Positions 20,042-39,780 of a stretch of 64,000 bases of DNA are shown here, piece after piece. Source of the DNA: Planctomycetaceae bacterium (GTDB lineage Bacteria > Planctomycetota > Phycisphaerae > Sedimentisphaerales > UBA12454); contig JAJFVK010000017.1 of assembly GCA_021371795.1 (NCBI GenBank), forward strand, positions 1 to 64,000. The letters run 5' to 3'. Within the stretch, counting starts at the first letter, position 1. Every line of letters starts with the position of its first letter. Below the pieces are notes generated by a model that made no database searches, was not told where the DNA came from, and worked only from the letters and a program-made list of their open reading frames with translations. The position numbers and the translations under genes are program-made.

Positions 20042-20425
20042 TTAGTCCCTATACATCCAGTCCCATCTTGTTGGAATTTGTTTTTGCCGGATTTTTTGTG
20101 CCATTTCTTTATTTTCTTTTTTCAGCTCATGCTCATAAATATATCTTCGTTCGCAATTGTTATATCTTGAAAAATTCTTTTGCATGGCTGATGACGGATA
20201 GAAATCCACAGCGCAGTAATATGTCTTTAAGTCGGGAATGTATTTATAATCGCACTGCGTTACGATTCCAACCATATTGTTTTTTAAAGTTTCGCAGATA
20301 ACAACATCGCCGTTTTTGAACATTGGAGCGGGGGCGTTGGCGGCAGGATTACGAAGTCGTTCTGTACACCCGGCTGACATAAACATCATCAGCAACAACG
20401 CCGGTATCAACAGTTGTTTATTCAT
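20042..20425 (-). CDS. small lipoprotein near the secretin operon
   Basis: 127 residues with a type II signal sequence and lipobox FMSAGC (Cys at about residue 19). The mature part is soluble, has two or three further Cys (CETL, QCDYK, NNCERR) and could be a small beta domain (NGDVVICETLKNNMVGIVTQ). aggag precedes the ATG. It is 138 bases downstream of the minus-strand secretin operon and on the same strand, so it may be the last gene of that unit or separate. Family unknown to me. Confidence 0.7.
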   Translation of the reverse strand: MNKQLLIPALLLMMFMSAGCTERLRNPAANAPAPMFKNGDVVICETLKNNMVGIVTQCDYKYIPDLKTYYCAVDFYPSSAMQKNFSRYNNCERRYIYEHELKKENKEMAQKIRQKQIPTRWDWMYRD

Positions 20426-20563
20426 TTATGAGACTCCTATACGCAAATAAAAGCCGAAAATAGACAATTGTCTATTTCTGACTTATATTTAAAACATAAT
20501 AATTGGAGGTGTATTTGTCAAATTGCAGAATGCACTAAAGATGTGTAAGAGATGTAATAATTT

Positions 20564-21118
20564 TTATCTTTTTGGCGTACTGCCCGGCTGGTTTGAAAGT
20601 TTTTGAAGTCTGCCGTTGAGGATTTTTACGACCTCGGCATTGCGGCGCTGAAGGCTGTTAAGCTCGTCGGTTACTTCATCTAATTTCTCTTTCATAGCTG
20701 TCGTTTCAGTTTTCGAAGTATCCAGTTGGCTGCGGGCGCCTGTGAGTTCGGAATAGGCTTTCAGAACTTCGGCGTTTAGTTTTTCGGCTTCAGCTTTGGA
20801 ATCCGACAGTTTTGTTTCGAGTTTCGCGGTGTTTACCGCTTTGTCGTTCAGGAGTTTATTATTTTTGTACAAATCCAAATACATAAAAGCCGAACCGACA
20901 AGGCAGACTCCCAGAGCGATAGCAGTGCATTTCCATATAAATTTGGCTTTTGTCTGGTCTGTTATGATGTCAAGGAGAATGCTGTTGTTTATATGCAGCT
21001 TCTTTTCGACTTTTTTGGATGCGTTGCCTTGCGTCTCTAATGAGTCGAGAATAGAATCTTCCGAGGCTAATACCTCGTTCAATTCATCCATAACAGCACT
21101 GTTCGTTTTATTTTTCAT
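20564..21118 (-). CDS. membrane-anchored coiled-coil protein of the secretin operon
   Basis: 184 residues. About 55 cytoplasmic residues, one membrane helix (about 57-80, FIWKCTAIALGVCLVGSAFM), then about 100 residues of heptad-type coiled coil (KLETKLSDSKAEAEKLNAEV and onward) predicted in the periplasm. The ATG at 21118 overlaps the stop of the previous gene as ATGA, which decides this start over an in-frame TTG 12 bases upstream. The topology resembles inner-membrane connectors of secretion machines, but no family is recognised. Confidence 0.75.
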   Translation of the reverse strand: MKNKTNSAVMDELNEVLASEDSILDSLETQGNASKKVEKKLHINNSILLDIITDQTKAKFIWKCTAIALGVCLVGSAFMYLDLYKNNKLLNDKAVNTAKLETKLSDSKAEAEKLNAEVLKAYSELTGARSQLDTSKTETTAMKEKLDEVTDELNSLQRRNAEVVKILNGRLQKLSNQPGSTPKR

Positions 21119-21615
21119 AATCCGTCCCAAGTAACGGTAATAGTTTGTGTGGCTGTATAATCGCCCGCATCGGAGACTTCATTAGGCCTGTTGCTTGCCT
21201 GAACATGCAGCGTTACCTGCACATTAGTGTCGCCTCCTGCTTGCTGAATATGCAAACCGTCGGAGAGAAAAGTGTCATAAGCTACATATTCTGTCATGCT
21301 GGTTCCGCCTGAACCGCTTGTCCCGTCGCCGTCAAAGGTTAGCTTGTATTCTGTTACAAGGGTGTCTGTTCCGTTACTTAATTGTGCCGCAGTGGTATTG
21401 TCAGCTGTTATAACAGCTTCAGGGTCAGCTCCGCTAATAGTAAGAGTTATGGTAGAAGAGCCTTCGCGGACATCAGACTGTTTGGAAATGTTTGTCAGTG
21501 AAATTGTCGCAGGATTGAAAGTGCCCCATACATATTCATTGACAGCGCATATAATTTGCGGCAATGTGATTATTGCCAGTACCATTACAACAAAATGTTT
21601 GTTTGAAAACATCAT
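21115..21615 (-). CDS. small secreted beta-rich protein, paralogue 2
   Basis: 166 residues with a signal peptide ending IICA. The mature part is Thr/Gly-rich beta sequence sharing blocks with the products at 24491-25087 and 25368-25880: TADNTTAAQLSNGTDT, LVTEYKLTFDGDGT, AYDTFL, a VTLHVQA strand and a C-terminal QTITVTW. The order (ladder of strands, SNG..L.Y.L, final YTATQTITVTW) recalls spore-coat-U/Csu-type pilin subunits, but the similarity is distant. Its ATG overlaps the secretin stop codon (ATGA), so it is translationally coupled to the secretin. Confidence 0.75.
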   Translation of the reverse strand: MMFSNKHFVVMVLAIITLPQIICAVNEYVWGTFNPATISLTNISKQSDVREGSSTITLTISGADPEAVITADNTTAAQLSNGTDTLVTEYKLTFDGDGTSGSGGTSMTEYVAYDTFLSDGLHIQQAGGDTNVQVTLHVQASNRPNEVSDAGDYTATQTITVTWDGL

Positions 21616-23174
21616 TTCTTTTTATTTTCGTTAGTCGCTTCGGAATCGACTGCCAACAGCGAAATTGCTTCCTGCAACATTTGTCTTTCCTGTTCAGGCG
21701 TCATTTCATTATTCGATGACGATACCTTAGAGATATTGTTTCCGCTGTCCATCTGGTCGTCGAGAAGGGTTACTGCATTGTTTAGAGACTTAATTTCTTC
21801 GTCTGTTTGTTTCTTTATTTTATTCTTTTCGTTTCTTGCAAACACTTCCGGCGAACGCAGCTTTTCTGTTTCTTTGGCGGCGTCAATCAGTTGATTACGG
21901 TCTGCGAATGCTATCTCATTATCCCTCATTAACTGCGGGGTAATGAAAATCATAACTTCTTTTTTCGTTGTGGTGTCTTCTTTGCTCTTGAAAAGACCGC
22001 CCACTACCGGCATATCGCCCAAAAGCGGGAATTTCCCGTGATTTGTCGATTCCTGTGTTTCGATAAGTCCGCCGATTACGATGGCGTCGCCTTCTCTTAC
22101 GCGGACGTGTGTATCGGCTTTACGTCTGCGAATTACAGGCAAATCGCTGCTTGATGTTGCGCTTGCACTGCCTGTGCTTTGCGAATTGCGTCTGGACGCG
22201 ACATCGCTGACTTCAGTTTGTACGTCAATGGTAATGTATCCATCTTCGCCGATGTGCGGCGTCATTTCAAGCGAAACGCCTGACTTAATAACTTCAAGCT
22301 CTGTTCGCAGAGATGTGCCGTAAAGGTCGGTGATAATGGTGTAATATTCATCCAATGAAATATCTATTTTTGCTTTTTGGCCGTTGAGTGTCGCTACTCT
22401 TGGCCTTGACCTTATGCTTGCTTTTTTCTCTTCAATCAATGCGCGAAGAGTCAAATTCAGTTGCAGTAAATTGCTTGCCGCTACGCTTGTATAACCTGCA
22501 AGTCCTGCGAAGCCGGCAACGCCTTTTGCCATACTAAACGATGTATGTGCCCCTAAAATATCCCAGTCAAGTCCGAACTCGTCGCTTGTGCCTTCCCAAA
22601 GGTCAACGACAAGCACTTCGAGCATAACCTGTTCCTGTGGGACGTCGAGTTTCTTTATGATATCCAATATATGTTCAGATATTTCAGGAACTGCGTAAAT
22701 CAGAGCTTCGTTATCTCTTTGTCCGCTGGTTACGTATTCCTGCAAAGACTTCGGCAGTGAATCGTGAAGATGTTTTGCTGATATATAATTGAGATACACC
22801 GGCATTGAGTTTACAGTCTCCACTGTGCTTGGACACATCGGGTCGCCGCAGGAAATCAGGTAAAACCTGTCACTTTTCTTCTTTACAAAAAGTCCCTGAC
22901 CGACGATGAGTTCATTGATACATTCTTCCAGCGGTTTGCCTTTTGCTGCGTCCAGTGAGACCATTAGGTCTGGTACGTGAGGACAGGTCGCCAGAATAAC
23001 GCCGTTCTCAACTGATATATCGCGGAAAATTTGGCTTAATGGTACATCTACCCAGACATTTTTGACAATGACTTCATCTTTGGACGCTTTTTCAGCAGCT
23101 CCGCAGAGAATCCCTGATAATAGTATCATAACTATTATAGCTGTCTTATTAAAATGTCTGATGTTATTTATCAT
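21612..23174 (-). CDS. outer-membrane secretin with coiled-coil tail
   Basis: 520 residues: signal peptide; a short N0/STN-like domain (about 35-100, VPLSQIFRDISVENGVI and a FYLIS strand); an N1-type repeat (about 125-180); the secretin pore domain (about 185-415: MLEVLVVDLWEG, SRPRVATLNGQKAKI, IVIGGLIETQE, LLGDMPVVGGLFKS, MIFITPQLM). The last 100 residues are polar coiled coil, unlike a typical S-domain. Secretins form 12-15-subunit outer-membrane channels for T2SS, T3SS, T4P or phage. It is distinct from the secretin at 40848-42314. The chaperone-like gene ends 7 bases upstream and paralogue 2 overlaps its end. Confidence 0.9.
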   Translation of the reverse strand: MINNIRHFNKTAIIVMILLSGILCGAAEKASKDEVIVKNVWVDVPLSQIFRDISVENGVILATCPHVPDLMVSLDAAKGKPLEECINELIVGQGLFVKKKSDRFYLISCGDPMCPSTVETVNSMPVYLNYISAKHLHDSLPKSLQEYVTSGQRDNEALIYAVPEISEHILDIIKKLDVPQEQVMLEVLVVDLWEGTSDEFGLDWDILGAHTSFSMAKGVAGFAGLAGYTSVAASNLLQLNLTLRALIEEKKASIRSRPRVATLNGQKAKIDISLDEYYTIITDLYGTSLRTELEVIKSGVSLEMTPHIGEDGYITIDVQTEVSDVASRRNSQSTGSASATSSSDLPVIRRRKADTHVRVREGDAIVIGGLIETQESTNHGKFPLLGDMPVVGGLFKSKEDTTTKKEVMIFITPQLMRDNEIAFADRNQLIDAAKETEKLRSPEVFARNEKNKIKKQTDEEIKSLNNAVTLLDDQMDSGNNISKVSSSNNEMTPEQERQMLQEAISLLAVDSEATNENKKK

Positions 23175-23181
23175 TAAAACC

Positions 23182-24453
23182 TTAATCTATCGTTATAGTT
23201 ATAGGAACACTGTACTGGACGGTTTGTTTTTTTGTTGTGCTTTCCAAACCGGACTCTTCCATTTCAATTATTACTGACCATTTATAAACTCCGGCTTTTG
23301 CATCCGCAGGCACTTTGATTGAGCAGGGCATTGATGTTGAGCTGTTTGGAGCCAGTGTAAAGTCGGATGTTTTGAGTTCGAGCCAGTCGTGTTCGGATTT
23401 TTCAATACGGCAATTAGCTGCGATAGTATTCAAACCCTGATTTTTAATCTGGAAACTTATGCTTGTGTTGCGGCCGGGATTCAATTTTAAATCAATCTTT
23501 TCCGGTGCGAACTCGAGCTTTGTTATGTTATTTTCATTTCCAACATTTTTCGCCCATACGTCCGCCAAATCCTGACTTATGACTAATTCCGTGTCTTTCA
23601 TCAGTTGGCGTTTGCTGTCTTCTGATGAGAATATTACGCGAAGTCTGTATTCGCCTGCCGGCAGGGGCTGCGACATTATACCTGTAAACCATCTGGTATC
23701 GCCCGGCAGAACATTATTTCTGCTGACATATAGCGGAACAGTCGCTATTTTTTTCATATTTTCATTATATATGTATGCCTTTGCTTTTGACTTAATAGAG
23801 ATTAAACCTTCATTTTTTATCTTTGCTTTGATTTTTAAAGATTGTTTTTCATTTATTTTATATTGGTCGATTTCTGAAAGCTCTTTTTTAAGTGGACCCG
23901 TCTCAAAAGCAGGTATTATGACATTTACATCCGTAATAGTGCCGCGTTCAACGTGGGTTCGGCGAACGACGCGAATAAACAAACCAGTTGCTGTACGCAA
24001 TTTGACTTGTACGCCTTTTTCACCTTCTTTTGTTTCACCCATTGAGACCATTGCAGAAGCCCAGTAATCGCCGTCTGCGTCCAATGGTGCGGTAACTGTG
24101 CCTTTTATTGTTTTTGATTCGCCGGGTTTGAGTGTGATTTCATTGGTATCGAGACTTATCCAGTCGGCCGCGGACCTCTCATGTTTATTTTCAGGTCCGA
24201 ATGAAAGAACTCCCTCATCGGAAACCTTAAAATCGAGAATCTTAATTTTGACAGGACACGGACTTGTTTTTTGGTCTCGTTGATTATTTTCCAGACTGAT
24301 AGTGAAACTTGCCTTTTTACCCGGCTTGACCTCAATATGCTGTGTTACAGGACTTACAGCCAGTCCTGCCAGAACAGTGTGCTGTAATACAAAAATGAGC
24401 AGAGTTACTAAGCCAACTCCCGTTGCCTTCCTTACTTGTGCTTTTCTTTCCAT
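23182..24453 (-). CDS. periplasmic multi-Ig (PapD/chaperone-like) protein
   Basis: 423 residues with an N-terminal signal sequence (GLVTLLIFVLQHTVLAG) and no further membrane segment. The first mature domain starts LAVSPVTQHIEVKPGKKASF and continues with ISLENN, DWISLDTNEITLKPGESKTI and GLFIRVVRR. This is the layout of PapD-type chaperones and of DUF916-like surface domains. At least two more Ig-like beta-sandwich domains follow (LSEIDQYKINEKQSLKIKAK; KIDLKLNPGRNTSISFQIKN), ending without an anchor. It is encoded directly before a secretin and between genes for putative subunits, so a subunit chaperone or fibre-base role is plausible but inferred. Confidence 0.7.
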   Translation of the reverse strand: MERKAQVRKATGVGLVTLLIFVLQHTVLAGLAVSPVTQHIEVKPGKKASFTISLENNQRDQKTSPCPVKIKILDFKVSDEGVLSFGPENKHERSAADWISLDTNEITLKPGESKTIKGTVTAPLDADGDYWASAMVSMGETKEGEKGVQVKLRTATGLFIRVVRRTHVERGTITDVNVIIPAFETGPLKKELSEIDQYKINEKQSLKIKAKIKNEGLISIKSKAKAYIYNENMKKIATVPLYVSRNNVLPGDTRWFTGIMSQPLPAGEYRLRVIFSSEDSKRQLMKDTELVISQDLADVWAKNVGNENNITKLEFAPEKIDLKLNPGRNTSISFQIKNQGLNTIAANCRIEKSEHDWLELKTSDFTLAPNSSTSMPCSIKVPADAKAGVYKWSVIIEMEESGLESTTKKQTVQYSVPITITID

Positions 24454-24490
24454 AGCTTTAATCCCTTAAATAATACAATTCCTGTTTCTG

Positions 24491-25087
24491 TTAGTTATCG
24501 CTGACCCATGAAGCTGTAATAGTCTGAACGGCCTGATAAAGACCGGAGTCTGCGACATTGTCTGTGTCGAAAGTTGCTTCAACTTCCAGCGTAACTTCAA
24601 CGGCACCGTCAGTATTGAAATGGGTTATATCAAGCGGCTCGGCAAGAAAAAGGTTGTGTACCACGTATGCATCGGAACCGCTGGCAAGTATGGCAACAGC
24701 CGAAGCGCCGGTGGCAGGATCGCCATCGCCGTCAGTTGAGATTTTGTATTTTGTTACTAACGCGTCTTCATTGGCTCCACCGCCTCTTTGATGTGTCAGT
24801 TGTGAAGTGGCCGTGTTGTCTGCGCTAAGTTCGACATTACAGTTCGTCCATAAAGTATAGGCTGCACTGCCTTCAGGACTGCTGTTCTGTGCGGTAAGGT
24901 GGCCTTCCTGCGCATCGAGGTCGATAGCCGCAAAATTCGCTCCTTCCCACTCGATAATTGTATCGACGGTTACTGATATATCGCACGTCGCTGAATCATC
25001 ACCTGGGTCGGCACCATAGAGTTTGGAGTTACAGCTTATCACCATAACACAAACAGCCAGTACTAACAAAATCCTATTCGTTTCCAT
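24491..25087 (-). CDS. small secreted beta-rich protein, paralogue 1
   Basis: 198 residues from the ATG at 25087. An in-frame ATG at 25102 exists, but its following codons contain the aagga that serves the second ATG. The signal sequence could be type I (ending LYGA) or type II (VISC). The mature N-terminus ATCDISVTVDTIIEW and TNCNVELSADNTATSQL give a Cys pair of the kind seen in Csu/SCPU subunits. Shared blocks LVTKYKISTDGDGD and C-terminal QTITASW link it to the other two paralogues. First gene of the minus-strand operon. Confidence 0.75.
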   Translation of the reverse strand: METNRILLVLAVCVMVISCNSKLYGADPGDDSATCDISVTVDTIIEWEGANFAAIDLDAQEGHLTAQNSSPEGSAAYTLWTNCNVELSADNTATSQLTHQRGGGANEDALVTKYKISTDGDGDPATGASAVAILASGSDAYVVHNLFLAEPLDITHFNTDGAVEVTLEVEATFDTDNVADSGLYQAVQTITASWVSDN

Positions 25088-25330
25088 TGTTTTATCCTTC
25101 ATTAAGATTTTATACTTATGTAAAGCTTACAAAATATTTATAGTTAAAGCGCAAAAAATGCTTTGTAGACCTATTCGTCATTAATTTAGAAGGTTGTTAT
25201 TTCGGAAAATACCTGATTTTAGCAATTTTCATCTGTTCGCAAGGTTTAAGTTTATTCACAAAAATAAGGCATTTCTTATGGGACACTAAACAGAGAAACT
25301 TTCAAATATATCCGTTGTAAGGTAATTTTC

Positions 25331-25359
25331 TTGATTATAGGACGTTAATTTGGTACAAT
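25331..25359 (+). promoter_or_regulatory. candidate promoter giving a near-leaderless mRNA
   Basis: TTGATT (25331-25336), 17-base spacer, TACAAT (25354-25359). The ATG of paralogue 3 is at 25368, only 8 bases after the -10 element, and no ribosome binding site is present. Transcription start and start codon would nearly coincide. Confidence 0.4.
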
Positions 25360-25367
25360 AACAAATT

Positions 25368-25880
25368 ATGAATTGCGTTAAATTTTTTATTTTATTTTTG
25401 GTTTTAAGCAGTTTCTCGCCGTTGGCAGGGGCTTTCCAGCCGCCTCCGCCGGCCTCTGCGACGTGCAGGATTACGTGCCGAGTTGCGGAAGTTATCGAAT
25501 GGTCGGAAGCTTCATTCCAGGACATTGATTTAGGTGAGCTTTCACCAAAACGAACCGAGGCCGCCGGCCAATCTGTTCTTACTCTTTACACCAATGGCGA
25601 TGTGATTATCACTGCTGATAATTCTGAAACTGCGAAGTTGTCCAATGGCCGATATCAGATTAGAACGCAATACCAGTTGCAGTGTGGTAGCGGTACTGTA
25701 TCTACACAGTGGTGTGCTTATGATACGTTTCTAAAAGAGGCGGTGGAAATAATACACCGGCAGACCGATGGGGCGGTAGTGGTGATTTTGTCAGTGAAGG
25801 CGCAAACAAATGATTTTCGGCCCGGCAGCGGTGGTGAATACGCCGCAGTGCAGACTCTCACGGCTTGTTGGAAGTCGTAG
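25368..25880 (+). CDS. small secreted beta-rich protein, paralogue 3
   Basis: 170 residues with a signal peptide ending LAGA and a short Pro run (QPPPPAS). The mature start SATCRITCRVAEVIEW, TADNSETAKLSNG, AYDTFLKEAVEI and C-terminal QTLTACW align with paralogues 1 and 2 at 21-25 kb. It has extra Cys residues (LQCGSG, QWCAYD, TACW). Divergent from the secretin operon, with 280 bases between the start codons. Its last 23 bases overlap the end of the giant coiled-coil gene on the other strand. Confidence 0.75.
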   Translation: MNCVKFFILFLVLSSFSPLAGAFQPPPPASATCRITCRVAEVIEWSEASFQDIDLGELSPKRTEAAGQSVLTLYTNGDVIITADNSETAKLSNGRYQIRTQYQLQCGSGTVSTQWCAYDTFLKEAVEIIHRQTDGAVVVILSVKAQTNDFRPGSGGEYAAVQTLTACWKS

Positions 25881-28800
25881 AATCTTTTGGTTCTTCCATT
25901 TGTTCCTGTTTTGTATATCCTCGCAGTTTCTCTGTAAATTTTTTGATATTGTAGAAATCTTCTTCCGGTTCCGCGTCGGAAGTCTGCGAAGGGGCTGTTT
26001 TGTGAAGTTTTAATTCCAAATCTGCCATCGCAGAATCGGCAAGGATGGTTCGCAGGTTATCTATTTGTTTTTCCTGCTGTTTAGTTTTCATTTTCTCTTG
26101 CGCCAGTGCACCGTCCGATTCTATTTTCATCCGAACCATTCGCATTCCAAGTTCAGCTTTGAGTTTGGCGATATCTGCCTCGTACATAGCGGATTTTTTG
26201 GCAGTTTCGGTCTGAATCGTTTCAATTGCGCTGATATAGGCGTTTTCTTTGCCCTGACTGCGTGCCTTTTCGGTGTAGATTGCATCCTGTGTTTCGGCCA
26301 GCATTTTGGCCAATTTTTCACCGAATTCCGATTTGACATTGGCGATAGTCTGCTGCGCTTCGGTTCTGATTTGATGGACGGACTGTTCCGCTTCGGCCTT
26401 TATCTTTGTGAACATCTGTTCGTAAGTCTGCGACTTGGCTTCCATCTCTACTTTAAGAGCTGTTTCAGCGGCCTGTAATTTTCGCTGTTCGTTTGCGATT
26501 GTATTTTGAGCATCCTGCTGAACACTGGCCAGTGTCCCCTGTAAGTTCTTTTCCTTTTCCGAGATTTCGGTTTTGAGATTCGCAATGATTGTGTCGAATT
26601 CAATCTTTTGCGTTGTGAGTTTTTCTTCCGCACGCAGTTCAACTTCGGCGATTTTTCTGGTTAATTCCTCGACCTTTGCCTTTTCGATATTTAATTGCTC
26701 TTGTGTGCGTATTCGCGTTTTTGATTCCAGCGTTGCCAGAGCATCAGCTTTTTCTGCCTGCTGAACCTGCTCGACGAGTTTTTTATCCATTTCAGCTTTA
26801 ACTTGAGCAATAGCGTCCTGATGCTGTGCTTTCAGTTCGCTGATTTCCTTTTGATAAGACCTGTATTTAATTTCGTTTTCAGTTTGCAGCCTTGCGATTG
26901 CCTCTTGAGTTTTCGCCTGTTCCTGAACGATTGACCGTATAGACTCGGCCTCGATTTCAGCGGTCTTTCTTATTAATTCATCAAATTTTGACTGTTCGTT
27001 GTGCAACTTGTCCTGTAATTCAGCTTTGAGCTTGATTTCAGAAGTCGCCACAACCTCGGCCTTGACTGTAAGCTGAATTTGAGCCGCGAGTTTCTCTTCG
27101 GACTGCTGTTTGATTTCCGCGATAGCTTTTTGCGATTCGGCTTTTACGTTTTCAATCTGCTCTTTGTAGTATTTTACTATTTTTTCGAATTCGCTTCTCT
27201 GTTCTGCGAAATTTTGTTCTGATTGCGTCTTTAGCTCTTCGAGTTTGTTTGTTAAATCGTCATTATTGCGTAACGCCAGATACAGATTTTCTTCAATTTT
27301 AGCTTTCGCTTTAGCTTCAAGTGCGACCTGTGCTTCAGCTTTGCCGGTGACCTGAATTTGCTCGGCGAGTTTTTCCGCATTTTGACGATTTATATCATTA
27401 ATAGTGTTTTGTGATTCAGCTTTTACATTTTCAATTTGTTCTTTATAGTATTTTACAATTTTTTCAAATTCGCTTCTCTGCTCGGCGAATTTCTGTTCCG
27501 ATTGTGATTTGAGTTCTTCGAGTTTATCTGTTAAATCATCATTGTTGTGTAACGCAAGCTGGAGATTTTCCTCGATTTTCGCTTTCGTGTTGGCTTCGAG
27601 TTTAGCCGTTGCCTCTGCTTTACCTGTAAGCTGAATTTGAGCCGCCAGTTTCTCTTCCATCTGCAGTTGAATATCCTCGATATCCTTCTGCGCCTCGGCC
27701 ATCGCGGTTACGAGCTGTTCTCGGTAGGAATCGGCGGTCTTTTCAAATTCGTTTCTTTGCAGGGTTAATTTTTCATCCGCATTCTGCTGTGTCTGGGCGA
27801 CATCCCTTTGCGCATCAGCTTTAACGATTTCGAGTTGTTTCTGCAGACCTTTAATAATCTTTTCAGATTCTATTTTTTGCGTTGTAAGTTTTTCTTCCGC
27901 CTGTAGTTTTATTTCAAGGGCATTCTTTTGTGACTCGGCTTTTGTGGCTTCAAGTTGTTCCTGATAGCGTTTTATCGTTTGTTCAAATTCCAGTTTTTGA
28001 GTCGCTAATTTTACATCATCCTGCAGTCTTGCCTCGGTGAGCTTTTTCTGTGATTCGGCTTTTATGCTTCCAATTTGTTCTTTATGATATTTTACGGTTT
28101 TTTCAAATTCGTTTTTTTGTTCCGCAAGTTTTTGTTCGTATTGTGATTTTTGTTCATCAGTCTTTTTTGTCAGCGTGTTGTTATTAAGCAGGGCGATTCG
28201 CAGATTCTCTTCAGCCTTGGCTTTTGCCTGTGCCTCCGATGCCGCCAGTGCTTCTGCTTTGGCCGTTAGTTCCGCCTGGTCGGCCAGTTTCTCATCGGCT
28301 TCGTACATTGCTTTCGCCAGCGAATGTTTTGCATCGGCGATGGTTTTTGTCAACGCGGTTTCGTATTCCTGTTTTAGTTTGGAGATTTCTTCTTTGTGAG
28401 TTTTTGAATTTGTTTCGAGTTCGGATTTGAGCGTAGAAATTGTCTGCTGTGCGTTTGTCTTCTCGAACGCGAGTGCTTTTCTCGTTTCCTCTTTGATTTC
28501 CGTTATTTGCTGCAAATATTTCGCTTCGGTTTGCGTCCATTCGTTTTTAAGCGTTTCAATCGCCTGATGTTTTTCGGCCTGCGCCTCGGCTCGTTCTCTG
28601 TTTATCGCCGCACAAGCATCTGCTTTTGTTCTGTCAATCTCTTCTGTCCGTTCGGAGTTCAGTTGAGCGGTTTTTTCCTGATAGAATAAATTAAGTTCCG
28701 CGGTCTTTTTAGTGAGTTCTTCTGCTTTTGCTTTTTCTTTATTAAACAGTTCTTCGGTATGTGTTTTCGCTTTTGATATTGTTTCTATCGCCGCTTCGGC

Positions 28801-30852
28801 GTTTTCCGCACGTTTCCGCAGATTTTCTATTTCTTCGTAGGCCTCGACTCTGATTTTGGCCAGGGCGTCTTTAGATTCTGTTTTGAGCAGGTCAACGATT
28901 TTTTCGTTTTCCGCCTTGAGATTGGCAATCTCATTTTCATAATACTTGGAGACGGTATGAATTTCCGTCCGCTGGCCTGTTATGAGTTGCTGTGATTTTG
29001 CCTGTTCTTCAGATAATGTTTTTTGGAACTCTGTTGTGATTTCCTGAATCTGCTGTTCAAGATTTAGTATCTTTTCACAATATTCCGCGTTTATATTTTT
29101 GATAAGCGATTGTGAGGTTGCCTGTTCTTGTGCGATGGCATCTGCCGCTTTTGTTTCGACTTCACAAATCTTTTTCTCGAGACTTTTCTCTTTCTCGGAG
29201 TATTCAGCTTTAAATTTTTCTGTTGTTTGTGCCAGTTTGGCCGCGGCAGTTGTTTTCTCTCTGTTTATCGTTTCCTGTGTATCGGCTTTTATGCGTTGAA
29301 TTTCCGCTGAATTTTCCGCTTTGAGTTGCGCGACTATTTTTTCAGTGTCCGTTGTCAGCAGGGTGGCCGATTTTTTTGCATCGCTCCTGATTGTCGCGAT
29401 ACTCTGCTGCGATTCTGTTTTGATTTTTTCAAATTCTTCTTCGTAATGTCGTGTCTTTGTGTCAATCTCATTTTTCAGCGTCGAGATAATATCCTTCGCC
29501 TTTGCGTTTTCTTCAGCCGCTGATTTTTCTATCTGTGCGATCTGCCGGATGTAGTTTGCTTCTTTCTCGGCGTATTCGTCTTTGATGGTTGTTATTGCCT
29601 GATGAATCTCTGTCTTCGCAGCCGTTTTAGCCTTGTCCATCGCTGCTGATAGTTCTGATTTCACACGTGCCAGTTCGCTTGAGTGTTCCGATTTGAGCTG
29701 AATTATTTCTTTGTCCCGTTCGCTGATTTTAAGCGTCTGGCTGTTTAATTGTTCCTGAAGGCGTATTTTGTTTTTCGCTTCCAGTGCCGCCGCTGTTTGC
29801 GATTTTACGGTTTGCTCTATTTGGCCGGCAAGTCTTTCCTCATAATCGGCTTTAAGCTGAAAAATCGCCTGATGTGAATCAGATTTTATTTTCGCGATTT
29901 CTTCCTCATACCGTCGGCATTTGGAATCGTTCTCGATTTTGATAGCGTCTATGACATCTTCGGTTGACGCCTCTATTTGACGAATACGCTGTTCGTACTC
30001 TTTTTCTTTTTCCCTGCTTTCAGCTTTTACTGTATTTACTGTCTCTTTGGCTTCTCTGTATGCCTGTTCTTTTGTTTCGCTTAATATTTTGTTCGAGTCT
30101 AATTTAAGGCCTGATATCTCGGCGGAATGTTCTGCTTTGAGTTTTATTATATTTTCGTCCGCCTGTACCAGTCTGGCTGTTAGTTCCTCGATTTTTACTT
30201 TTTCTTTTTTCAGTTGTTCTATCGCCTGAAACTTTGCCTCGTTTTCAGAGTTTGCGACAGCTTCATTTTTCAGAATCTGCTGTAATTGAGAAGCGGATTT
30301 TACTTCTGCGTCTTTTTTAATATGTAAAATTATTTCGTTAAATTCTGATTTGGCTCTGGACAGTTCTTCGGCGTGTATTTGTGATTTTTCTTTCAGTTCC
30401 TGTTTGAGCGAAGATATTATTTCCTGATGTTTTGCCTTGTCTTCCGAAAGTGATTTTTCCGCTTTAGCTTCGGCTTCAGTTATGCGGAGTTTTAGATTTT
30501 TCTCTTTTTCCTCGTATTCAGCTTTAAGTTTCGCACTGTCCTTCTGATTTTGCGACAGGGCGGTTTCTTTTTCTTTTTTCAGTTTTCCTTCGAACTCTGA
30601 TTTCAGTCGAAGTATTTCAGCGGATGATTCAGCCTTGAGTTTCGCAGTGTTATTTTGGTTTTCAGCTATTAGTTTGGTGATAACCTCGTTGTAGGCTTTG
30701 CTTTTTCTGTCCGCAGTGGCAACGATTTGATTTAGATGGTTGTCTGTTTCCTGGGACAGAGCCTGTCCGTCAGATTGAGGTGTCGATTCAGCCTTGAGCA
30801 TTGCTTTGGCAATCAATTTCCCAATTTTAGGTTTGAATCTTAACAGAGACAT
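25858..30852 (-). CDS. giant cytoplasmic coiled-coil protein
   Basis: 1664 residues, almost entirely Lys/Glu/Ala/Gln heptad sequence from about residue 20 to 1600, without signal peptide, membrane helix or nucleotide-binding motif. A basic N-terminus (LLRFKPKIGKLIAKAMLKA) and a non-coiled C-terminal tail (EDFYNIKKFTEKLRGYTKQ) are the only other parts. There are long internal near-repeats of 93 residues (FEKIVKYYKEQIENVKAESQ occurs twice). Fully extended it could exceed 200 nm. It may be a filament or scaffold; no family is recognised. Convergent with paralogue 3, and its start is 256 bases from the divergent pilB-like gene. Confidence 0.85.
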   Translation of the reverse strand: MSLLRFKPKIGKLIAKAMLKAESTPQSDGQALSQETDNHLNQIVATADRKSKAYNEVITKLIAENQNNTAKLKAESSAEILRLKSEFEGKLKKEKETALSQNQKDSAKLKAEYEEKEKNLKLRITEAEAKAEKSLSEDKAKHQEIISSLKQELKEKSQIHAEELSRAKSEFNEIILHIKKDAEVKSASQLQQILKNEAVANSENEAKFQAIEQLKKEKVKIEELTARLVQADENIIKLKAEHSAEISGLKLDSNKILSETKEQAYREAKETVNTVKAESREKEKEYEQRIRQIEASTEDVIDAIKIENDSKCRRYEEEIAKIKSDSHQAIFQLKADYEERLAGQIEQTVKSQTAAALEAKNKIRLQEQLNSQTLKISERDKEIIQLKSEHSSELARVKSELSAAMDKAKTAAKTEIHQAITTIKDEYAEKEANYIRQIAQIEKSAAEENAKAKDIISTLKNEIDTKTRHYEEEFEKIKTESQQSIATIRSDAKKSATLLTTDTEKIVAQLKAENSAEIQRIKADTQETINREKTTAAAKLAQTTEKFKAEYSEKEKSLEKKICEVETKAADAIAQEQATSQSLIKNINAEYCEKILNLEQQIQEITTEFQKTLSEEQAKSQQLITGQRTEIHTVSKYYENEIANLKAENEKIVDLLKTESKDALAKIRVEAYEEIENLRKRAENAEAAIETISKAKTHTEELFNKEKAKAEELTKKTAELNLFYQEKTAQLNSERTEEIDRTKADACAAINRERAEAQAEKHQAIETLKNEWTQTEAKYLQQITEIKEETRKALAFEKTNAQQTISTLKSELETNSKTHKEEISKLKQEYETALTKTIADAKHSLAKAMYEADEKLADQAELTAKAEALAASEAQAKAKAEENLRIALLNNNTLTKKTDEQKSQYEQKLAEQKNEFEKTVKYHKEQIGSIKAESQKKLTEARLQDDVKLATQKLEFEQTIKRYQEQLEATKAESQKNALEIKLQAEEKLTTQKIESEKIIKGLQKQLEIVKADAQRDVAQTQQNADEKLTLQRNEFEKTADSYREQLVTAMAEAQKDIEDIQLQMEEKLAAQIQLTGKAEATAKLEANTKAKIEENLQLALHNNDDLTDKLEELKSQSEQKFAEQRSEFEKIVKYYKEQIENVKAESQNTINDINRQNAEKLAEQIQVTGKAEAQVALEAKAKAKIEENLYLALRNNDDLTNKLEELKTQSEQNFAEQRSEFEKIVKYYKEQIENVKAESQKAIAEIKQQSEEKLAAQIQLTVKAEVVATSEIKLKAELQDKLHNEQSKFDELIRKTAEIEAESIRSIVQEQAKTQEAIARLQTENEIKYRSYQKEISELKAQHQDAIAQVKAEMDKKLVEQVQQAEKADALATLESKTRIRTQEQLNIEKAKVEELTRKIAEVELRAEEKLTTQKIEFDTIIANLKTEISEKEKNLQGTLASVQQDAQNTIANEQRKLQAAETALKVEMEAKSQTYEQMFTKIKAEAEQSVHQIRTEAQQTIANVKSEFGEKLAKMLAETQDAIYTEKARSQGKENAYISAIETIQTETAKKSAMYEADIAKLKAELGMRMVRMKIESDGALAQEKMKTKQQEKQIDNLRTILADSAMADLELKLHKTAPSQTSDAEPEEDFYNIKKFTEKLRGYTKQEQMEEPKDSTTSNKP
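27140..27697. repeat. 279-bp tandem duplication inside the coiled-coil gene
   Basis: Bases 27140-27418 and 27419-27697 are near-copies (for example gcttttac, ttcgaattcgcttctctg versus ttcaaattcgcttctctg), encoding a 93-residue unit twice. A more diverged copy starts near 28058. Differences are mostly at third codon positions, which points to an old duplication kept by selection on the protein. Confidence 0.7.
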
Positions 30853-31108: not shown

Positions 31109-32872
31109 ATGGCAACATTAGCACCTAAAAATATTGAAGTGAAAAACGAAGTTCCATTCGGCCAATGGCTGGTATCAAAAGGGATAATCAGTCAGGACGA
31201 GTTGAGCGATGCGCTCAAGGAGCAGAAAAAGGCTGGCGGCAAGCTGGGCGAAGTGCTTTTGAGGCTCAAAAAGCAGGAATCAACCTCTATCACACGTTTT
31301 CTTGCAGACTATCTTTCAATGGAGTACAGATCACTTGAGGAAGTCAGCAAGATGGATATGACGGTTGCAAGACTGCTGCCAGAGGCAATTGCCAGGCGTT
31401 TTTGTCTTGTAGCGGTTGGAACAGATGATGAAAAGATTGTCGTCGCAATGGCCGACCCGCTGGATGTTGTCGCGGTCGATACGATTAAACAAAGGTTAAA
31501 GAAAGAACTGAAATTAGTTGTAAGCTCGCAGGAAGAAATCAACCATGCGATAGAATTGATTTATCATGGTTCAGATGTGGAAGAGCAGAGCCTTCGAGAC
31601 CTTGTTGAAACTGAGATTGTTGAAGAGCAGCATGAAATTCAATCTCTAAAAGACAGCCAGGACGAGATTGAAAATACAACTCCTGAAGCTGCTACGCAGG
31701 CTCCTGTTATACGTTTCGTGGATTTGCTTTTGAGCCAGGCCGTGAAGAGCAGGGCAAGCGATATTCACGTTGAGCCGCAGGAAAACACTATGGATATACG
31801 TATGCGTATAGATGGTGTGCTGCGGGATATGGTTCCGCCTGCCAGAAAGATGCAGGCCGCTGTTGTTACAAGAATTAAAATTCTTTCGGATATGGACATT
31901 GCCGAGCATCGTTTGCCGCAGGACGGTCGTTTCAAAATTAAAACCGCAGGCAGAGACATTGATGTTCGTGTTTCGCTCATTCCGGTTATCTACGGCGAAA
32001 AAATCGTTATGCGTATTCTCGACGCAGGCGCCTTGAATCACGACATTACGCAGCTTGGTTTTGAACCGAAGCGGATGGAGGAGTTTAAGACGATACTTAG
32101 TCAGCCGCATGGAATTATTGTCATTACAGGCCCTACAGGAAGCGGTAAAAGTACGACATTGTACTCGGCGTTGAATTATTTGAAGAGTCCGACTGAAAAC
32201 ATCACAACGGTTGAAGACCCGGTTGAATATAGATTGAAGGGCATAAATCAAATTCAGGTAAAATCAGAAATAGGGCTTGATTTCGCGTCCTGTTTGAGAG
32301 CGATTTTAAGACAGGACCCTGATGTGATTTTGGTTGGCGAAATACGTGATAAGGAAACTGTTGAAATAGCGATTAAGGCTTCGCTTACAGGCCACCTTGT
32401 GTTGAGCACATTCCACACAAACGATGCGCCAAGCGCGATCAGCAGATTGATATATATGGGTATTGAGCCGTATTTGCTTGTATCTTCGCTTAATCTGATT
32501 ATTGCGCAAAGACTTGTAAGGAGGATTTGCGAACATTGCAAAGAGCCTGTCGAGTTGAGCGAAGAATTGCTTAGGCGTTTGAAATTTACTCCGGAGCAGG
32601 TCAAAAATGGCAATATATGCAAAGGCAAAGGCTGCTCTGCCTGTGGATGGTCCGGATATAAAGGCAGAATGCCGATTTTTGAATTTCTTGTTATTGATAA
32701 TGATATTCGTGAATTAATCATTAAAGGCGGCAATGAGATGGATATCAGGGCAATGTCCCGTAAAAAGGGCTATGACGGGCTGCTTGAGTGCGGTGCCGGC
32801 AAAATTTTGCTGGGCATGACGACAGCCGAAGAAGTGCTTAGTGTTGCTTTTACTGAAAACATATCGGGGTAA
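31109..32872 (+). CDS. PilB/GspE-type secretion ATPase
   Basis: 587 residues. An N-terminal MshEN-type domain (about 15-150; GQWLVSKGIISQDELSDALK), then a hexameric ATPase domain with Walker A GPTGSGKST at about 341, Asp box and Walker B (DPDVILVGEIRD), His box (STFHTND) and a C-terminal zinc motif (CEHC, CKGKGCSACGW). It powers assembly of type IV pili or type II pseudopili. MshEN domains can bind c-di-GMP in some members. First gene of the plus-strand filament cluster. Confidence 0.95.
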   Translation: MATLAPKNIEVKNEVPFGQWLVSKGIISQDELSDALKEQKKAGGKLGEVLLRLKKQESTSITRFLADYLSMEYRSLEEVSKMDMTVARLLPEAIARRFCLVAVGTDDEKIVVAMADPLDVVAVDTIKQRLKKELKLVVSSQEEINHAIELIYHGSDVEEQSLRDLVETEIVEEQHEIQSLKDSQDEIENTTPEAATQAPVIRFVDLLLSQAVKSRASDIHVEPQENTMDIRMRIDGVLRDMVPPARKMQAAVVTRIKILSDMDIAEHRLPQDGRFKIKTAGRDIDVRVSLIPVIYGEKIVMRILDAGALNHDITQLGFEPKRMEEFKTILSQPHGIIVITGPTGSGKSTTLYSALNYLKSPTENITTVEDPVEYRLKGINQIQVKSEIGLDFASCLRAILRQDPDVILVGEIRDKETVEIAIKASLTGHLVLSTFHTNDAPSAISRLIYMGIEPYLLVSSLNLIIAQRLVRRICEHCKEPVELSEELLRRLKFTPEQVKNGNICKGKGCSACGWSGYKGRMPIFEFLVIDNDIRELIIKGGNEMDIRAMSRKKGYDGLLECGAGKILLGMTTAEEVLSVAFTENISG

Positions 32873-32952
32873 TATCGAAGCATAATTATTAATTAACCGA
32901 GTGTTTAATAATGCCGATAGCGTTAAATGGGTTGTAGAAATCAGGTATTAGT

Positions 32953-34164
32953 ATGCAGGTTTATAGTTATACAGTTAAAACTTTTGCCGGCGAGCGTAAG
33001 GAAGGCGTCAAGCAGGCTGCTTCAGTCAATGAGCTTTCGGGCTGGCTGCGAGAGCAGGGCTTTATACCTATAAAAGTGCATGAGATATCTTCGGAAAGAA
33101 AAAAGAAATCGAGTAGTTCTTCGCGTAAGAAAGTCAAGGCCGCCGAATTGTCTGCGGTTTATTGGCAGTTGACCACGATGCTTGAAAGTGGTGTTCCGGT
33201 AGCGACGGCTTTGGGGACTATTGCCGAAGATATTGAGAATGCGTATCTGCAAACAATAGTTAAGGATATTTTGGCGAAAGTTAATAAAGGCGAACCCTTT
33301 TCAGTTGGTATTGCCGACTATCCCAAAGTATTTAACAAAATAACATGCGCGATGATTTTGGCAGGTGAAACGAGTGGTAATTTGCCGGATTCGCTGAAAA
33401 GGCTTGCCGAGTATTTTGACGGCAGGGACAAGTTCAGCAAAAAAGTCAAGGTTGCGCTTGCGTATCCGATTTTCGTACTGATTTTTATCGTTTTGCTCGT
33501 TGTGTTTATGATGAGTTTTATCGTACCGCGATTCAAAATGATTTTTGACCAGTTAGGCGGGGAACTGCCCGCTTTTACACGCGGGTTTATGGCAGTGTAT
33601 GATATGCTTCGTCATTATATTGTTTTTATGGTTCCTGCGATTTTTGGAATTGTGAGTTCGTTGGGTTGGATTTACAAAAAAACACAAAAGGGGCATCTGT
33701 TTTTCAGTAAGAGATTTCTTGCGATTCCGTTATTTGGAAGGTTAATAAAATACGCATTTGTCGCGATGTTCTGCAAAACTATGGCGGCATTGCTGAACGC
33801 GGGCGTTTCGGTGCTCGAAGTTTTTAATATTCTTTCATCGATGAGCAATAACGATGTCATAAAAGCCGCGGTTATGAAGACAAAGGAACGTATTGTTGAA
33901 GGTACGAGTATTTCGGCAAGTATGATATCGGTCGGTTTCTTTCCCAATATGGTCAATAAAATGGTGCAGATTGGCGAAGAGAGCGGTTCGCTGCCCTCGA
34001 TGCTCGAAAGAACGGCTGATTTTTACGAACGCAAGGTTGACTCGATATTGACGGCTCTATTAAGTTTGCTTGAGCCGATAATGATTGTAACTGTCGGCGG
34101 AGTCGTGCTTACGGTTGTATTAGCGCTGTATTTGCCCATTTTCACGATGGGGGGTAAGGGATAA
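32953..34164 (+). CDS. PilC/GspF inner-membrane platform protein
   Basis: 403 residues, the usual length. Two homologous cytoplasmic helical domains (about 70-195 and 275-395; LTTMLESGVPVATAL and MAALLNAGVSVLEVF are the matching starts) with three membrane segments. The LAGETSGNLP and QIGEESGSLP repeats are family hallmarks. It forms the platform on which the ATPase turns to add pilins. It follows the ATPase gene after 80 bases. Confidence 0.95.
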   Translation: MQVYSYTVKTFAGERKEGVKQAASVNELSGWLREQGFIPIKVHEISSERKKKSSSSSRKKVKAAELSAVYWQLTTMLESGVPVATALGTIAEDIENAYLQTIVKDILAKVNKGEPFSVGIADYPKVFNKITCAMILAGETSGNLPDSLKRLAEYFDGRDKFSKKVKVALAYPIFVLIFIVLLVVFMMSFIVPRFKMIFDQLGGELPAFTRGFMAVYDMLRHYIVFMVPAIFGIVSSLGWIYKKTQKGHLFFSKRFLAIPLFGRLIKYAFVAMFCKTMAALLNAGVSVLEVFNILSSMSNNDVIKAAVMKTKERIVEGTSISASMISVGFFPNMVNKMVQIGEESGSLPSMLERTADFYERKVDSILTALLSLLEPIMIVTVGGVVLTVVLALYLPIFTMGGKG

Positions 34165-34285
34165 AAAAGATTTTAATGGCCATAATTTGGTATTTAAGAA
34201 AATATTTATTATGGTTTAGATTAGTGAAGTAGAGAAAGTTTTTGTTAAACTTATTAACTGTTTTTTAAGAATTAGGAGACAAAAA

Positions 34286-34696
34286 ATGAAAGCAAAAAAA
34301 GGTTTCACTCTGATTGAGTTGATGGTCGTTATTATGATCGTCGGCATTTTGGCTGCGGTGGCTATCCCGTTGATGCGGGGCAGAGTAGATTCAGCAAAAT
34401 GGTCAGAAGGCAAAGCAGTTGCAGGTACTATCGCTACAGCGCTTCGTGCGTATGCTGCTGAAAAAGGCGGCCAGGGCGCATGGGCAAATCCAACTCTCGC
34501 AGAACTTGGATTTACAACAGGCGATATGCTCGGCACATATTTTGCATCGACCAACTACAGCTGGACAACTACTTATGATGAAACAGCAAACCCGCCGCTC
34601 CAGTTTACAGTGACGGTAACAAAACCGACTGCGATTGCTTCAGGTACTGACCTGACGTTGACCGAAGCGGGTGTCTTTGCCGGGGGACCTCAATAA
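34286..34696 (+). CDS. major type IV pilin / pseudopilin
   Basis: 136 residues. Short basic leader MKAKKG, cleavage before FTLIELMVVIMIVGILAAVA with the required Gly at -1 and Glu at +5, then a Gly/Thr-rich head domain. A good aggag lies upstream and a strong terminator directly follows, as expected for the most abundant subunit. The head has no Cys pair and lacks the usual GspG calcium-site pattern, so I keep the call general. Processing would need a prepilin peptidase, which is not in the window. Confidence 0.92.
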   Translation: MKAKKGFTLIELMVVIMIVGILAAVAIPLMRGRVDSAKWSEGKAVAGTIATALRAYAAEKGGQGAWANPTLAELGFTTGDMLGTYFASTNYSWTTTYDETANPPLQFTVTVTKPTAIASGTDLTLTEAGVFAGGPQ

Positions 34697-34724
34697 TCCG
34701 GTAGTATAAACCTAAGTACTAAGT

Positions 34725-34757
34725 TCAGAGGGGCTTCCAGGCCCCTCTGATTTTTTT
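34725..34757 (+). terminator. terminator after the major pilin gene
   Basis: A 10-bp stem tcagaggggc (34725-34734) and gcccctctga (34741-34750), 6-base loop, followed by seven T (34751-34757). Placed inside the cluster, it probably lowers read-through into the minor pilin genes. Confidence 0.85.
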
Positions 34758-34778
34758 CGGGGATGTATGGAGATTTGA

Positions 34779-35288
34779 ATGCGGTTAGTAAGGTATAAAA
34801 AATCGAAAGCATTCTCGCTTACGGAGGTAATGCTGACTGCGGCTGTTATTGGAATAGTCTCTGTCGGCGTTCTTGATTATCAGCATCATTCACTCAAACA
34901 GAGCAGAATCGCTAAGGTTCAAATCACCGCCGCAAGAACGGCGCAGCTCCTTTTGGAAGACTGGAAAAGCACCGGCGGTTCAACTGCGTATAATCCTTCA
35001 GATTTAAATTTGGGATTTTCATCTTCAGCGGCCGGTTCTGATTTCACAACAGGATACTCAATCGGCGGAATTTTAAACAACGCAATCTATTCTATAACCA
35101 TAAATAATGTACCTATGCTGGTTGTTCTGGCGTACAGCGATGTCGACCACGATGAAGTTGCCGATACTACTCTGCGGCAGATTACTGCGATGGTTCGGTG
35201 GCGTATGGGAAAGGCTACCGGCAGCGGCGGTACTACTTTATGTACGTCGCCGGTAATTTTAACGACCTATGTAAGGCTTGACGGTTAG
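34779..35288 (+). CDS. minor prepilin-like protein (PilV/GspI type)
   Basis: 169 residues. The leader ends KSKA before FSLTEVMLTAAVIGIV, so position -1 is Ala rather than the usual Gly, while Glu at +5 is kept. The soluble part is Ser/Gly-rich. ggag precedes the ATG. First of three minor pilin-like genes after the terminator; such proteins prime the filament tip. Confidence 0.82.
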   Translation: MRLVRYKKSKAFSLTEVMLTAAVIGIVSVGVLDYQHHSLKQSRIAKVQITAARTAQLLLEDWKSTGGSTAYNPSDLNLGFSSSAAGSDFTTGYSIGGILNNAIYSITINNVPMLVVLAYSDVDHDEVADTTLRQITAMVRWRMGKATGSGGTTLCTSPVILTTYVRLDG

Positions 35289-35297
35289 AAATTATCA

Positions 35298-35981
35298 ATG
35301 AGTTATCGCAATAAAAAATTTCGTTCAGGCGTTACGCTTATCGAGTTGTGTACATCGATGCTGGTAGCGTCGATTCTTATGCTCGTTGTCGGTGTGCTTA
35401 TTGTCGGCTCTGCAAAGGGCTGGCAGCAGAATTATGATATTGCGCACAAAGAGATAAATGAACAGGCCACCGCGGTTACGCTGGCGTTCGCCAACATAGG
35501 CAGACGCTCGAATTTTAATAATTATGAGGTATATGTCAAATCTACCGGCTCGACATTTGTACCGGCAACATCGCCCACGCCCGCCGAGGAAACCGTTGTT
35601 TCAGGAGATGCTGTGGAGTTTCGCTATTGGGATGTTGAGCTGGATTCCGGTGATTCGCACGATTTGATGGATTTTTCCAAGACAGCCACTGTTTACGCAC
35701 TTTTTTATCTTCAGAACGGAAAATTAAAAGTTGATTATGGTCAGTATCCGCCCGGTGGTATTCCTGCAGGCGGCGGCACGAGAAACACTACGGACATAAA
35801 AACAGTTACGCTTGCCGAAAATGCTTCTGCCGGTCCGGGCTGTGGCGCTTTCAGTCATACAAAACTTAGCGGCGCAGGAAAGGGCTGTGTTAGGATTAAT
35901 GTTATTTTGACTGACCCGAATGACGGTGAGCAAGTTAGAATTTCCAATTCTGTTCTGTTGAGAAATAAATGGCCGCGATAA
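35298..35981 (+). CDS. minor prepilin-like protein (PilW/GspJ type)
   Basis: 227 residues. Leader ending RSG before VTLIELCTSMLVASILMLVV, with Gly at -1 and Glu at +5. The head domain includes a run of conserved-looking strands (DAVEFRYWDVELDSG) and a Gly-rich loop with a Cys pair (GPGCGAF, GKGCVR). It lies 9 bases after the previous gene and 1 base before the next. Confidence 0.82.
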   Translation: MSYRNKKFRSGVTLIELCTSMLVASILMLVVGVLIVGSAKGWQQNYDIAHKEINEQATAVTLAFANIGRRSNFNNYEVYVKSTGSTFVPATSPTPAEETVVSGDAVEFRYWDVELDSGDSHDLMDFSKTATVYALFYLQNGKLKVDYGQYPPGGIPAGGGTRNTTDIKTVTLAENASAGPGCGAFSHTKLSGAGKGCVRINVILTDPNDGEQVRISNSVLLRNKWPR

Positions 35982-35982
35982 T

Positions 35983-37680: not shown

Positions 37681-37724
37681 CACAATTCATAATACCACAT
37701 CGCGAATAGGATAGTTTGTAAATA

Positions 37725-37913
37725 AAAAATCAAAATGGAAAAATTAAAATGACAAATCAAAATTGAAAAATGATTTCGCCTGCACTTTTTAGGATGCTTG
37801 TTCTTTTGTGATTAATTCATAATCTGCCCCAAAAAACAGACAAATTCAGAGAATTGGCCATTTTAAATTTTACATTGTCATTTTGCATTTTGATTTTTGA
37901 TGTTTGATTTTCT
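37725..37913. repeat. pair of inverted heptamer-periodic tracts
   Basis: The left tract (37725-37773) reads as seven 7-base units (aaaaatc, aaaatgg, aaaaatt, aaaatga, caaatca, aaattga, aaaatga). The right tract (37858-37913) reads as eight (ccatttt, aaatttt, acattgt, cattttg, cattttg, atttttg, atgtttg, attttct) and is roughly the reverse complement. They fill most of the 352-base gap between the pilX-like and pilM genes (37681-38032). I see no terminator or clear promoter there. Confidence 0.6.
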
Positions 37914-38032
37914 GATATCCCAAACTAACTTATTCGCGCTGTAACATTAAATAATACGTTATTTTAGGACCTTTCCGCCAAATATTTCAATCTGTTGGTT
38001 AATTCACGTCTTTTTGCGGTCGATAAAACAGT

Positions 38033-39124: not shown

Positions 39125-39774
39125 GTAACACAAAATTGCTTAAAATTGATTTGCTGAAAGGTCAGGGGATTCCCACAAGGAGCAATCCTGAAAAAATCGC
39201 CCTGATGGCGATTACGATTTTAGTGCCGACCATTATGTCGATTGGGATGTTCGGTTATTTTTGGAAGTACAATGTGCTTATCTCGATTGAAAGGCAGAAA
39301 ATCGCCAATTGCGAGAAAGGCATTCAAAGTATGGCAAAAGCGCAGGCTCTGCTGGACAAAAGCCAGAAGGAAAAAAAGTTTAAAAATGATTGCCTGGGCG
39401 AAGTTGCAAAAATTATTAACAGCCGTTATCAGTGGACGCCGGGCATTGTTGAAATAGTGAAGTTGATGCCGGACAGCGTGTTGCTCAAGGAGATTGAAAT
39501 CAAGCAGAGCAATATCAAAAAAAATGTTCCGTCGAAAACAGAAGTCGGCCAGATGATTGAAATTACCCTTCCGGTTACGAAGATGAAAATCAGTGTAACT
39601 GAAAGATTGCCGGGCAGCGGCCCGCATATTAGAGAATTCCAGAACAATTTGCGTTCTTCCGAGGTTTTCGGACATATTTTGGATTACGTTACTGTTTCGC
39701 AGGGGGTGGATTCATACAGAGAGCAGAGTATGGTTTCATATCAGATAGAATGTTCTTTTAAGGCCGAAAAATAA
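39121..39774 (+). CDS. pilN: PilN-like inner-membrane protein
   Basis: 217 residues. A short cytoplasmic N-terminus, one membrane helix (about 27-48, MAITILVPTIMSIGMFGYFW), a coiled-coil linker (SIERQKIANCEKGIQSMAKA) and a periplasmic ferredoxin-like domain. Position directly after pilM with a 4-bp overlap and before the PilO-like gene supports the assignment; sequence conservation in this family is low. Confidence 0.8.
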   Translation: MSNTKLLKIDLLKGQGIPTRSNPEKIALMAITILVPTIMSIGMFGYFWKYNVLISIERQKIANCEKGIQSMAKAQALLDKSQKEKKFKNDCLGEVAKIINSRYQWTPGIVEIVKLMPDSVLLKEIEIKQSNIKKNVPSKTEVGQMIEITLPVTKMKISVTERLPGSGPHIREFQNNLRSSEVFGHILDYVTVSQGVDSYREQSMVSYQIECSFKAEK

Positions 39775-39780
39775 TCAGCT

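Follow-up and report, generated by a model that had tools for sequence, protein, structure and literature searches.

How pilin-like subunits could reach the cell surface in a bacterium that lacks the usher is the question raised by a compact gene set in the window (the whole 64,000-nucleotide stretch of DNA analysed here). To our knowledge, donor-strand fimbriae are assembled by an usher in every described system; secretins are known from type II, type III and IV-pilus-like machines. Here, a secretin gene lies between those of a candidate chaperone and a pilin-like subunit. Taken together, we hold with moderate confidence that the locus encodes a surface-fimbria system of chaperone-secretin type, which would combine donor-strand subunits, a WxLIP-type chaperone and a dedicated secretin.

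The gene set and its pilin-like subunits

From its upstream end, the minus-strand operon reads: par1 (24491-25087; 198 residues from the ATG at 25087); ig (23182-24453; 423 residues); the secretin gene (21612-23174; 520 residues); par2 (21115-21615; 166 residues); and a coiled-coil gene (20564-21118; 184 residues). A divergent gene, par3 (25368-25880, plus strand; 170 residues), lies on the other side of par1. Downstream of the operon, a small predicted lipoprotein gene (20042-20425, minus strand) encodes a signal with a lipobox-like MSAGC. Its product is a possible pilotin, and its membership of the set is uncertain, with an orthologue at the equivalent place in two relatives only (L032 and L033). 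The initial annotation had placed all seven reading frames correctly, and the four-base ATGA overlaps that it described at the secretin/par2 and par2/coiled-coil junctions are seen in the sequence.

The end of par3 overlaps a convergent gene for a 1664-residue protein that is almost all coiled coil (25858-30852), beyond which, about 6 kb from the operon, lies a cluster for type IV pilus/type II-like assembly (31109-42314), which is complete and comprises PilB, PilC, two prepilin-like genes, PilM, PilO and a secretin (40827-42314). G004 and G005 also retain the order par3, long coiled coil, PilB-like gene, on different contigs (L155 and L156).

The three paralogues are the sole members of their family in the genome, share 36-38% identity and can be aligned over their full length. 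All three end in QT(I/L)TxxW, as had been described; the other motifs proposed as common to them hold in par2 and par3, and par1 deviates slightly (SADN..QLTHQ, YKI). No convincing Pfam family, WxL included, was found across 39 members, and PDB sequence searches with the paralogues returned nothing useful. In particular, none of the 39 sequences matches PF05229 at E<=1, so that the membership of the Csu/spore-coat-U family suggested at the outset is not supported.

The pilin-like character suggested at the same time is borne out by the modelled fold. An AlphaFold2 model of par1, built from 39 sequences, has a pLDDT of 85.7 and, apart from the signal peptide, leaves only residues 27-44 unordered. 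Its closest Foldseek matches in the PDB are FimA, CfaB, the PapG pilin domain, PapA, the CS17 pilin and Caf1, with E-values starting at 6e-5, probabilities reaching 1.00 and TM-scores, by target, reaching 0.60. Sequence comparison adds less. A full-length profile match to pilins (92%) was inflated by signal peptides; with mature parts, the paralogues compared with 19 E. coli K-12 fimbrial subunits score 45% (133 columns, E 2e-4). Controls from 20 column shuffles and a reversed profile stay at or below 0.4%, and single paralogue groups score under 8%. As the match is weak once signal peptides are removed, the fold comparison carries the pilin claim. On that basis, the computational evidence places par1 in the fold class of chaperone-usher pilins, with par2 and par3 as pilin-like paralogues.

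The N-terminal regions divide the paralogues further. Counted from the estimated signal cleavage site up to the first column with a conserved tryptophan, the orthologues of par1 and par3 carry a hydrophobic extension of about 18-25 residues with the pattern ATCxIxxTVxxIxEW (21 residues in par1 and 22 in par3 of the window). The exceptions are one value of 27, for L060, where the cleavage site is uncertain, and one row without a readable signal. In par2 orthologues, only 3-7 residues separate the signal peptide from the first core strand (15/15). The distant loci L090, L091 and L092 likewise appear, by eye, to have subunits with the extension plus one without. In chaperone-usher pili, such an extension serves as donor strand and is missing from the tip subunit. 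The par1 extension, which is not folded onto its own domain in the model, is thus a candidate donor strand.

By the same analogy, and from its sequence, par2 is a candidate tip or first subunit. In G056, par2 accounts for the final ~150 residues of a secreted protein of 706 residues (L154:1818-3938), which is one of exactly three paralogue matches in that genome. The N-terminal region of this protein matches no Pfam family and appears, by eye, fn3-like and repeat-rich; the layout is that of a two-domain tip adhesin.

A WxLIP-family protein and a dedicated secretin

The product of ig contains, in the order found in WxLIP proteins, a WxLIP_PGBD match (PF06030; E 1.3e-11, over the cut-off) and then a WxLIP_HBD match just under it (PF11797; E 5.4e-6, 26.8 bits against 28.9), the best stretch of which falls on the third Ig domain. 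The AlphaFold2 model (pLDDT 82) has three Ig domains. Its good-quality Foldseek matches are the Enterococcus WxLIP structures 9i1y and 9i25 (TM 0.51-0.57), the class 5 chaperone CfaA (4ncd; 0.58-0.60) and CsuC (5d6h and 6fq0; 0.52-0.57). The multi-Ig axonemal proteins that head the hit list were discarded as repeat matches with poor TM-scores (0.03-0.31).

Relationship to PapD is not seen at the sequence level: ig has no PF00345 or PF02753 match, hhalign of the Ig family against nine E. coli K-12 chaperones gives 0.2-1.9%, and a PDB sequence search with the family returned nothing useful. By sequence, ig is therefore a member of the WxLIP (DUF916/DUF3324) family and not of PapD. Of the two affiliations first offered for this protein, DUF916 is supported and PapD, by sequence, is not, while the chaperone-like fold stands, as reflected in the WxLIP, CfaA and CsuC matches.

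Analysis of conserved positions suggests how ig might engage subunits. The most conserved peptides of the family, ADGDYWA and VKLRTATGLF, fall on the F1 and G1 strands, matching the WxLIP hairpin; the loop between them (145-150) is unordered in the model. For Gram-positive clusters, the prediction is that the DUF916 hairpin of WxLIP completes the WxL sandwich by inserting into it (PMC10599100). By analogy, ig may bind the par subunits through its own hairpin.

The length of ig relatives varies with their neighbours. Those linked to a secretin have 392-612 residues. Shorter relatives (269-326 residues, two Ig domains) adjoin a protein of 900-1200 residues, and the third, C-terminal Ig domain is absent from the relatives linked to usher-like proteins. 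Since the longer chaperones are those with a secretin, the third Ig domain goes with the secretin, for which it may be a docking module.

The pore gene itself was recognized as a secretin from the start, and PF00263 agrees (E 4e-42; 144 bits against a cut-off of 27.5). It falls below the cut-off of every named subfamily model tried (the GspD, PilQ, SctC and MshL NCBIfam models), with 169.7 bits against 351 for GspD. The genome has seven secretin matches, the second in the window being that of the type IV pilus/type II-like cluster. In a secretin tree, the chaperone-linked secretins and five other secretins of the genome split in 84% of bootstraps (support 88/46), a weakly supported branch that is compatible with, and no proof of, a single lineage dedicated to the gene set. 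Predicted lipoprotein genes adjoin the secretin in several distant loci (L090:8506-9522, L091:1264-2280, L092:5762-6139, L093:3679-4326 and L111:9899-10429); their products are candidate pilotins.

The usher family PF00577 has no match in the whole genome, which is 98% complete, so that the missing usher noted in the initial annotation extends well beyond the locus. Among 148 relatives, PF00577 gave one weak match, at a different type of locus.

The last gene of the operon encodes a predicted inner-membrane-anchored, periplasmic coiled coil, with a transmembrane segment at about residues 60-78. The secretin of the window ends in a C-terminal tail of ~105 residues with EERQMLQEAISLL. Across loci, where the coiled-coil gene is present, the tail has ~100-130 residues and ends in an EExxxLQEAIxLL-like motif. 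Gene and long tail occur together in 12/12 cases, and a short tail goes without the gene in 8/8; because the lineages share ancestry, the 20 cases do not count as independent. Direct contact between coiled coil and tail is an attractive inference. The coiled-coil family also has paralogues in unrelated places elsewhere (L152 and L153). The coiled coil is thus best regarded as an accessory, and the case for it as a hallmark in common with usher-like loci (L043) is weaker.

Conservation of the gene set

The relatives searched are mostly uncultured metagenome-assembled genomes (MAGs), as is the window genome, and the proposed system is described here from their genes. In the order-level sample of 148 genomes, ig has 14 strong orthologues besides that of the window, and their surroundings retain the arrangement of par3 facing par1-ig-secretin-par2, with or without the coiled-coil gene. 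The divergence of par3 from par1 is seen in most relatives whose contig spans the region; in two genus members, G004 and G005, par3 lies on a separate contig. A named collection yielded 16 loci with matching gene order, almost all from MAGs labelled Planctomycetota, Phycisphaerae or Sedimentisphaerales, with one labelled Brocadiaceae. The full set recurs as a unit, with one gene arrangement, in some 15 genomes of this taxonomic order, which is far more than chance would give.

Subunits and Ig protein also track each other. The paralogue profile is positive in 16 of the 148 genomes, with three copies each in 15; the sixteenth, G130, holds a remnant of par2, secretin and a par3 fragment. Paralogues and Ig protein occur together in 15 genomes, paralogues only in one, the Ig protein only in none and neither in 132 (Fisher p 1e-19, a value made too small by the kinship of the genomes). 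No Ig orthologue was found in the order outside the 15 paralogue carriers.

In the phylum-level sample of 392 genomes, the gene set is carried by eight. There, operons of the form par-par-ig-secretin are seen again in G157, G244 and G226, and pairs of ig and secretin occur in G500, G445, G503 and a second locus of G157; the pair in G503 is flanked by two small secreted proteins with, by eye, a pilin-like last strand. A further pair occurs in G112, a member of the same order. The adjacency of ig and secretin is thus found within the order, in one Brocadiaceae genome and in further families, and pared-down ig-secretin(-par) versions occur across Planctomycetota. Conservation as a unit, to which the initial annotation had looked for corroboration, is established computationally by the order-wide recurrence together with these reduced versions. 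None of the findings that the initial annotation had listed as counting against its reading was encountered.

In three loci (L061, L062 and L064), par3 adjoins a flagellin-like gene, and in L061 fliG/fliF-like genes also lie close by; both observations were made by eye.

Proposed assembly route and competing explanations

We infer that ig binds the subunits, that these exchange strands, that export runs through the secretin and that a fibre results. In this route, signal peptides would take par1, par2 and par3 into the periplasm, where each would be a pilin subunit with an incomplete Ig fold. There, ig would bind them and complete the fold, probably with the F1-G1 hairpin at about residues 128-162, and so act on the subunits as WxLIP is predicted to act on WxL domains. 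Assembly would begin with par2, which lacks the extension and would become the tip, and par1 and par3 would be added by donor-strand exchange through the ATCxIxxTVxxIxEW extension. Subunits or growing fibre would then exit via the dedicated secretin, which would stand in for the usher. In most lineages, the inner-membrane coiled coil may tether the secretin, by its C-terminal tail, to the inner membrane.

Much of this proposal parallels the chaperone-usher pathway of type 1 and P pili, class 5 CFA/I and archaic Csu: pilin-fold subunits with an N-terminal extension, and one without; a periplasmic chaperone fold of two Ig domains; and an operon of chaperone, pore and subunits. In contrast to that pathway, the genome has a secretin instead of an usher, the chaperone is a WxLIP-family protein with a third Ig domain and the subunits match no fimbrial Pfam family. 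The proposed system would work like a chaperone-usher system but, given the negative usher search, does not belong to that pathway. Several observations count against the fimbrial reading: sequence similarity of mature paralogues to pilins is weak and that of ig to PapD nil, the usher match of the alternative pore is weak and confined to one type of large neighbour, and the secretin clade has weak support. An assembly ATPase and a pseudopilus normally assist secretins in the export of folded substrates; the operon encodes neither of these, nor a platform protein.

If ig permanently held the paralogues on the envelope, the secretin would need only to let them out, and there would be no polymer or strand exchange. 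This WxL-like surface complex is unlikely, but it draws on real resemblances to the Gram-positive WxL/WxLIP (DUF916-DUF3324) clusters. By Pfam and fold, ig shares their chaperone family (by sequence WxLIP, not PapD); one such protein accompanies several small beta-sandwich partners, as WxL clusters typically pair one WxLIP with two or more (PMC10599100); and a W-containing C-terminal strand ends the paralogues. WxLIP has been proposed to hold WxL proteins on peptidoglycan (PMC10599100). The partners here are nonetheless pilin-like and not WxL: across 39 members no WxL or other Pfam model matches convincingly, and the par1 model retrieves chaperone-usher pilins, its 50 best hits including no WxL chain. 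Furthermore, the C-terminal transmembrane helix of WxLIP (PMC10599100) has no counterpart in the ig model, which ends in a third Ig domain and a beta strand, and the host is a diderm with a secretin. An extension lacking in exactly one paralogue, together with the adhesin fusion, points to serial strand exchange.

The nearby type IV pilus cluster leaves room for an explanation in which that machine drives export. Here, the secretin would serve a type IV pilus/type II machine (e.g. 31109-42314), the paralogues would be cargo or surface accessories and ig a periplasmic carrier. Like the secretins of type II, type IV pilus and type III machines, that of the operon combines the secretin domain with an N-terminal ring region, and small lipoproteins adjoin it in several loci; unlike them, it scores far below every named-model cut-off and its operon lacks the ATPase, pseudopilins and platform protein. 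A complete PilB-PilC-pilin-PilM-PilO-secretin cluster 6 kb off, the par3-long coiled coil-PilB order in G004 and G005, and a pseudopilin-like and a PilB-like gene after the ig-secretin pair of G500 speak for such a role. The cluster, however, has its own secretin, and most other loci have no such neighbours: flagellin is found in L061, L062 and L064, and sugar-nucleotide and other genes in L090 and L091. As this explanation also leaves the pilin fold, the extension pattern and the adhesin fusion unaccounted for, we consider it improbable.

That secretin and coiled coil instead clamp the membranes of an envelope-spanning structure (e.g. crateriform-related), with the Ig-fold proteins as collars and no export, is very improbable: it would suit the constant pairing of coiled-coil gene and long tail (12/12, with neither in 8/8) and the crateriform structures that link both membranes, with 12-nm pili-like fibres in Planctopirus (PMC5394234), but the gene set occurs in a minority of genomes (16/148 in the order, 8/392 in the phylum) whereas crateriform structures are reported from many planctomycetes.

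The chaperone-secretin reading, if true, would make the pore of a donor-strand module exchangeable and represent a new way to build fimbriae; proof of the pore exchange would justify a separate category for it. It would also link Gram-positive WxL/WxLIP proteins to fimbrial chaperones by a common mechanism, and raise the question of how a secretin orders subunits without an ATPase. The gene set is a candidate for planctomycete surface fibres. No published description of a chaperone-secretin fimbria system was found in the open literature, which leaves out most subscription journals.

Related loci extend the proposal beyond the secretin. In L046-L048, the plug region of the large proteins resembles ushers, weakly but repeatably (PF00577 E 1e-4 to 2e-3; 31-59% by hhalign, against at most 3.2% for shuffles). 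PDB sequence searches with these proteins returned nothing useful. The similarity is confined to this type of large neighbour; the second type (L043-L045 and L109) reached 6.5% by profile and was rejected as an usher. Tentatively, and short of an even expectation, Planctomycetota may have a phylum-wide chaperone-secretin pathway, an additional way across the outer membrane for donor-strand fimbriae. In it, the WxLIP-type chaperone/pilin module would have had its exit pore exchanged, the pore being a secretin or a large, partly usher-like protein by lineage, with the third Ig domain as secretin adaptor.

The loci with the second type of large neighbour (L043, L044, L045 and L109) encode a two-Ig WxLIP-like protein beside a protein of 900-1200 residues with Ig repeats, a putative barrel and carboxypeptidase-regulatory-like domains. 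It is possible that they represent a further fimbria-like system of planctomycetes; L044 and L109 also contain three or four tandem small secreted paralogues.
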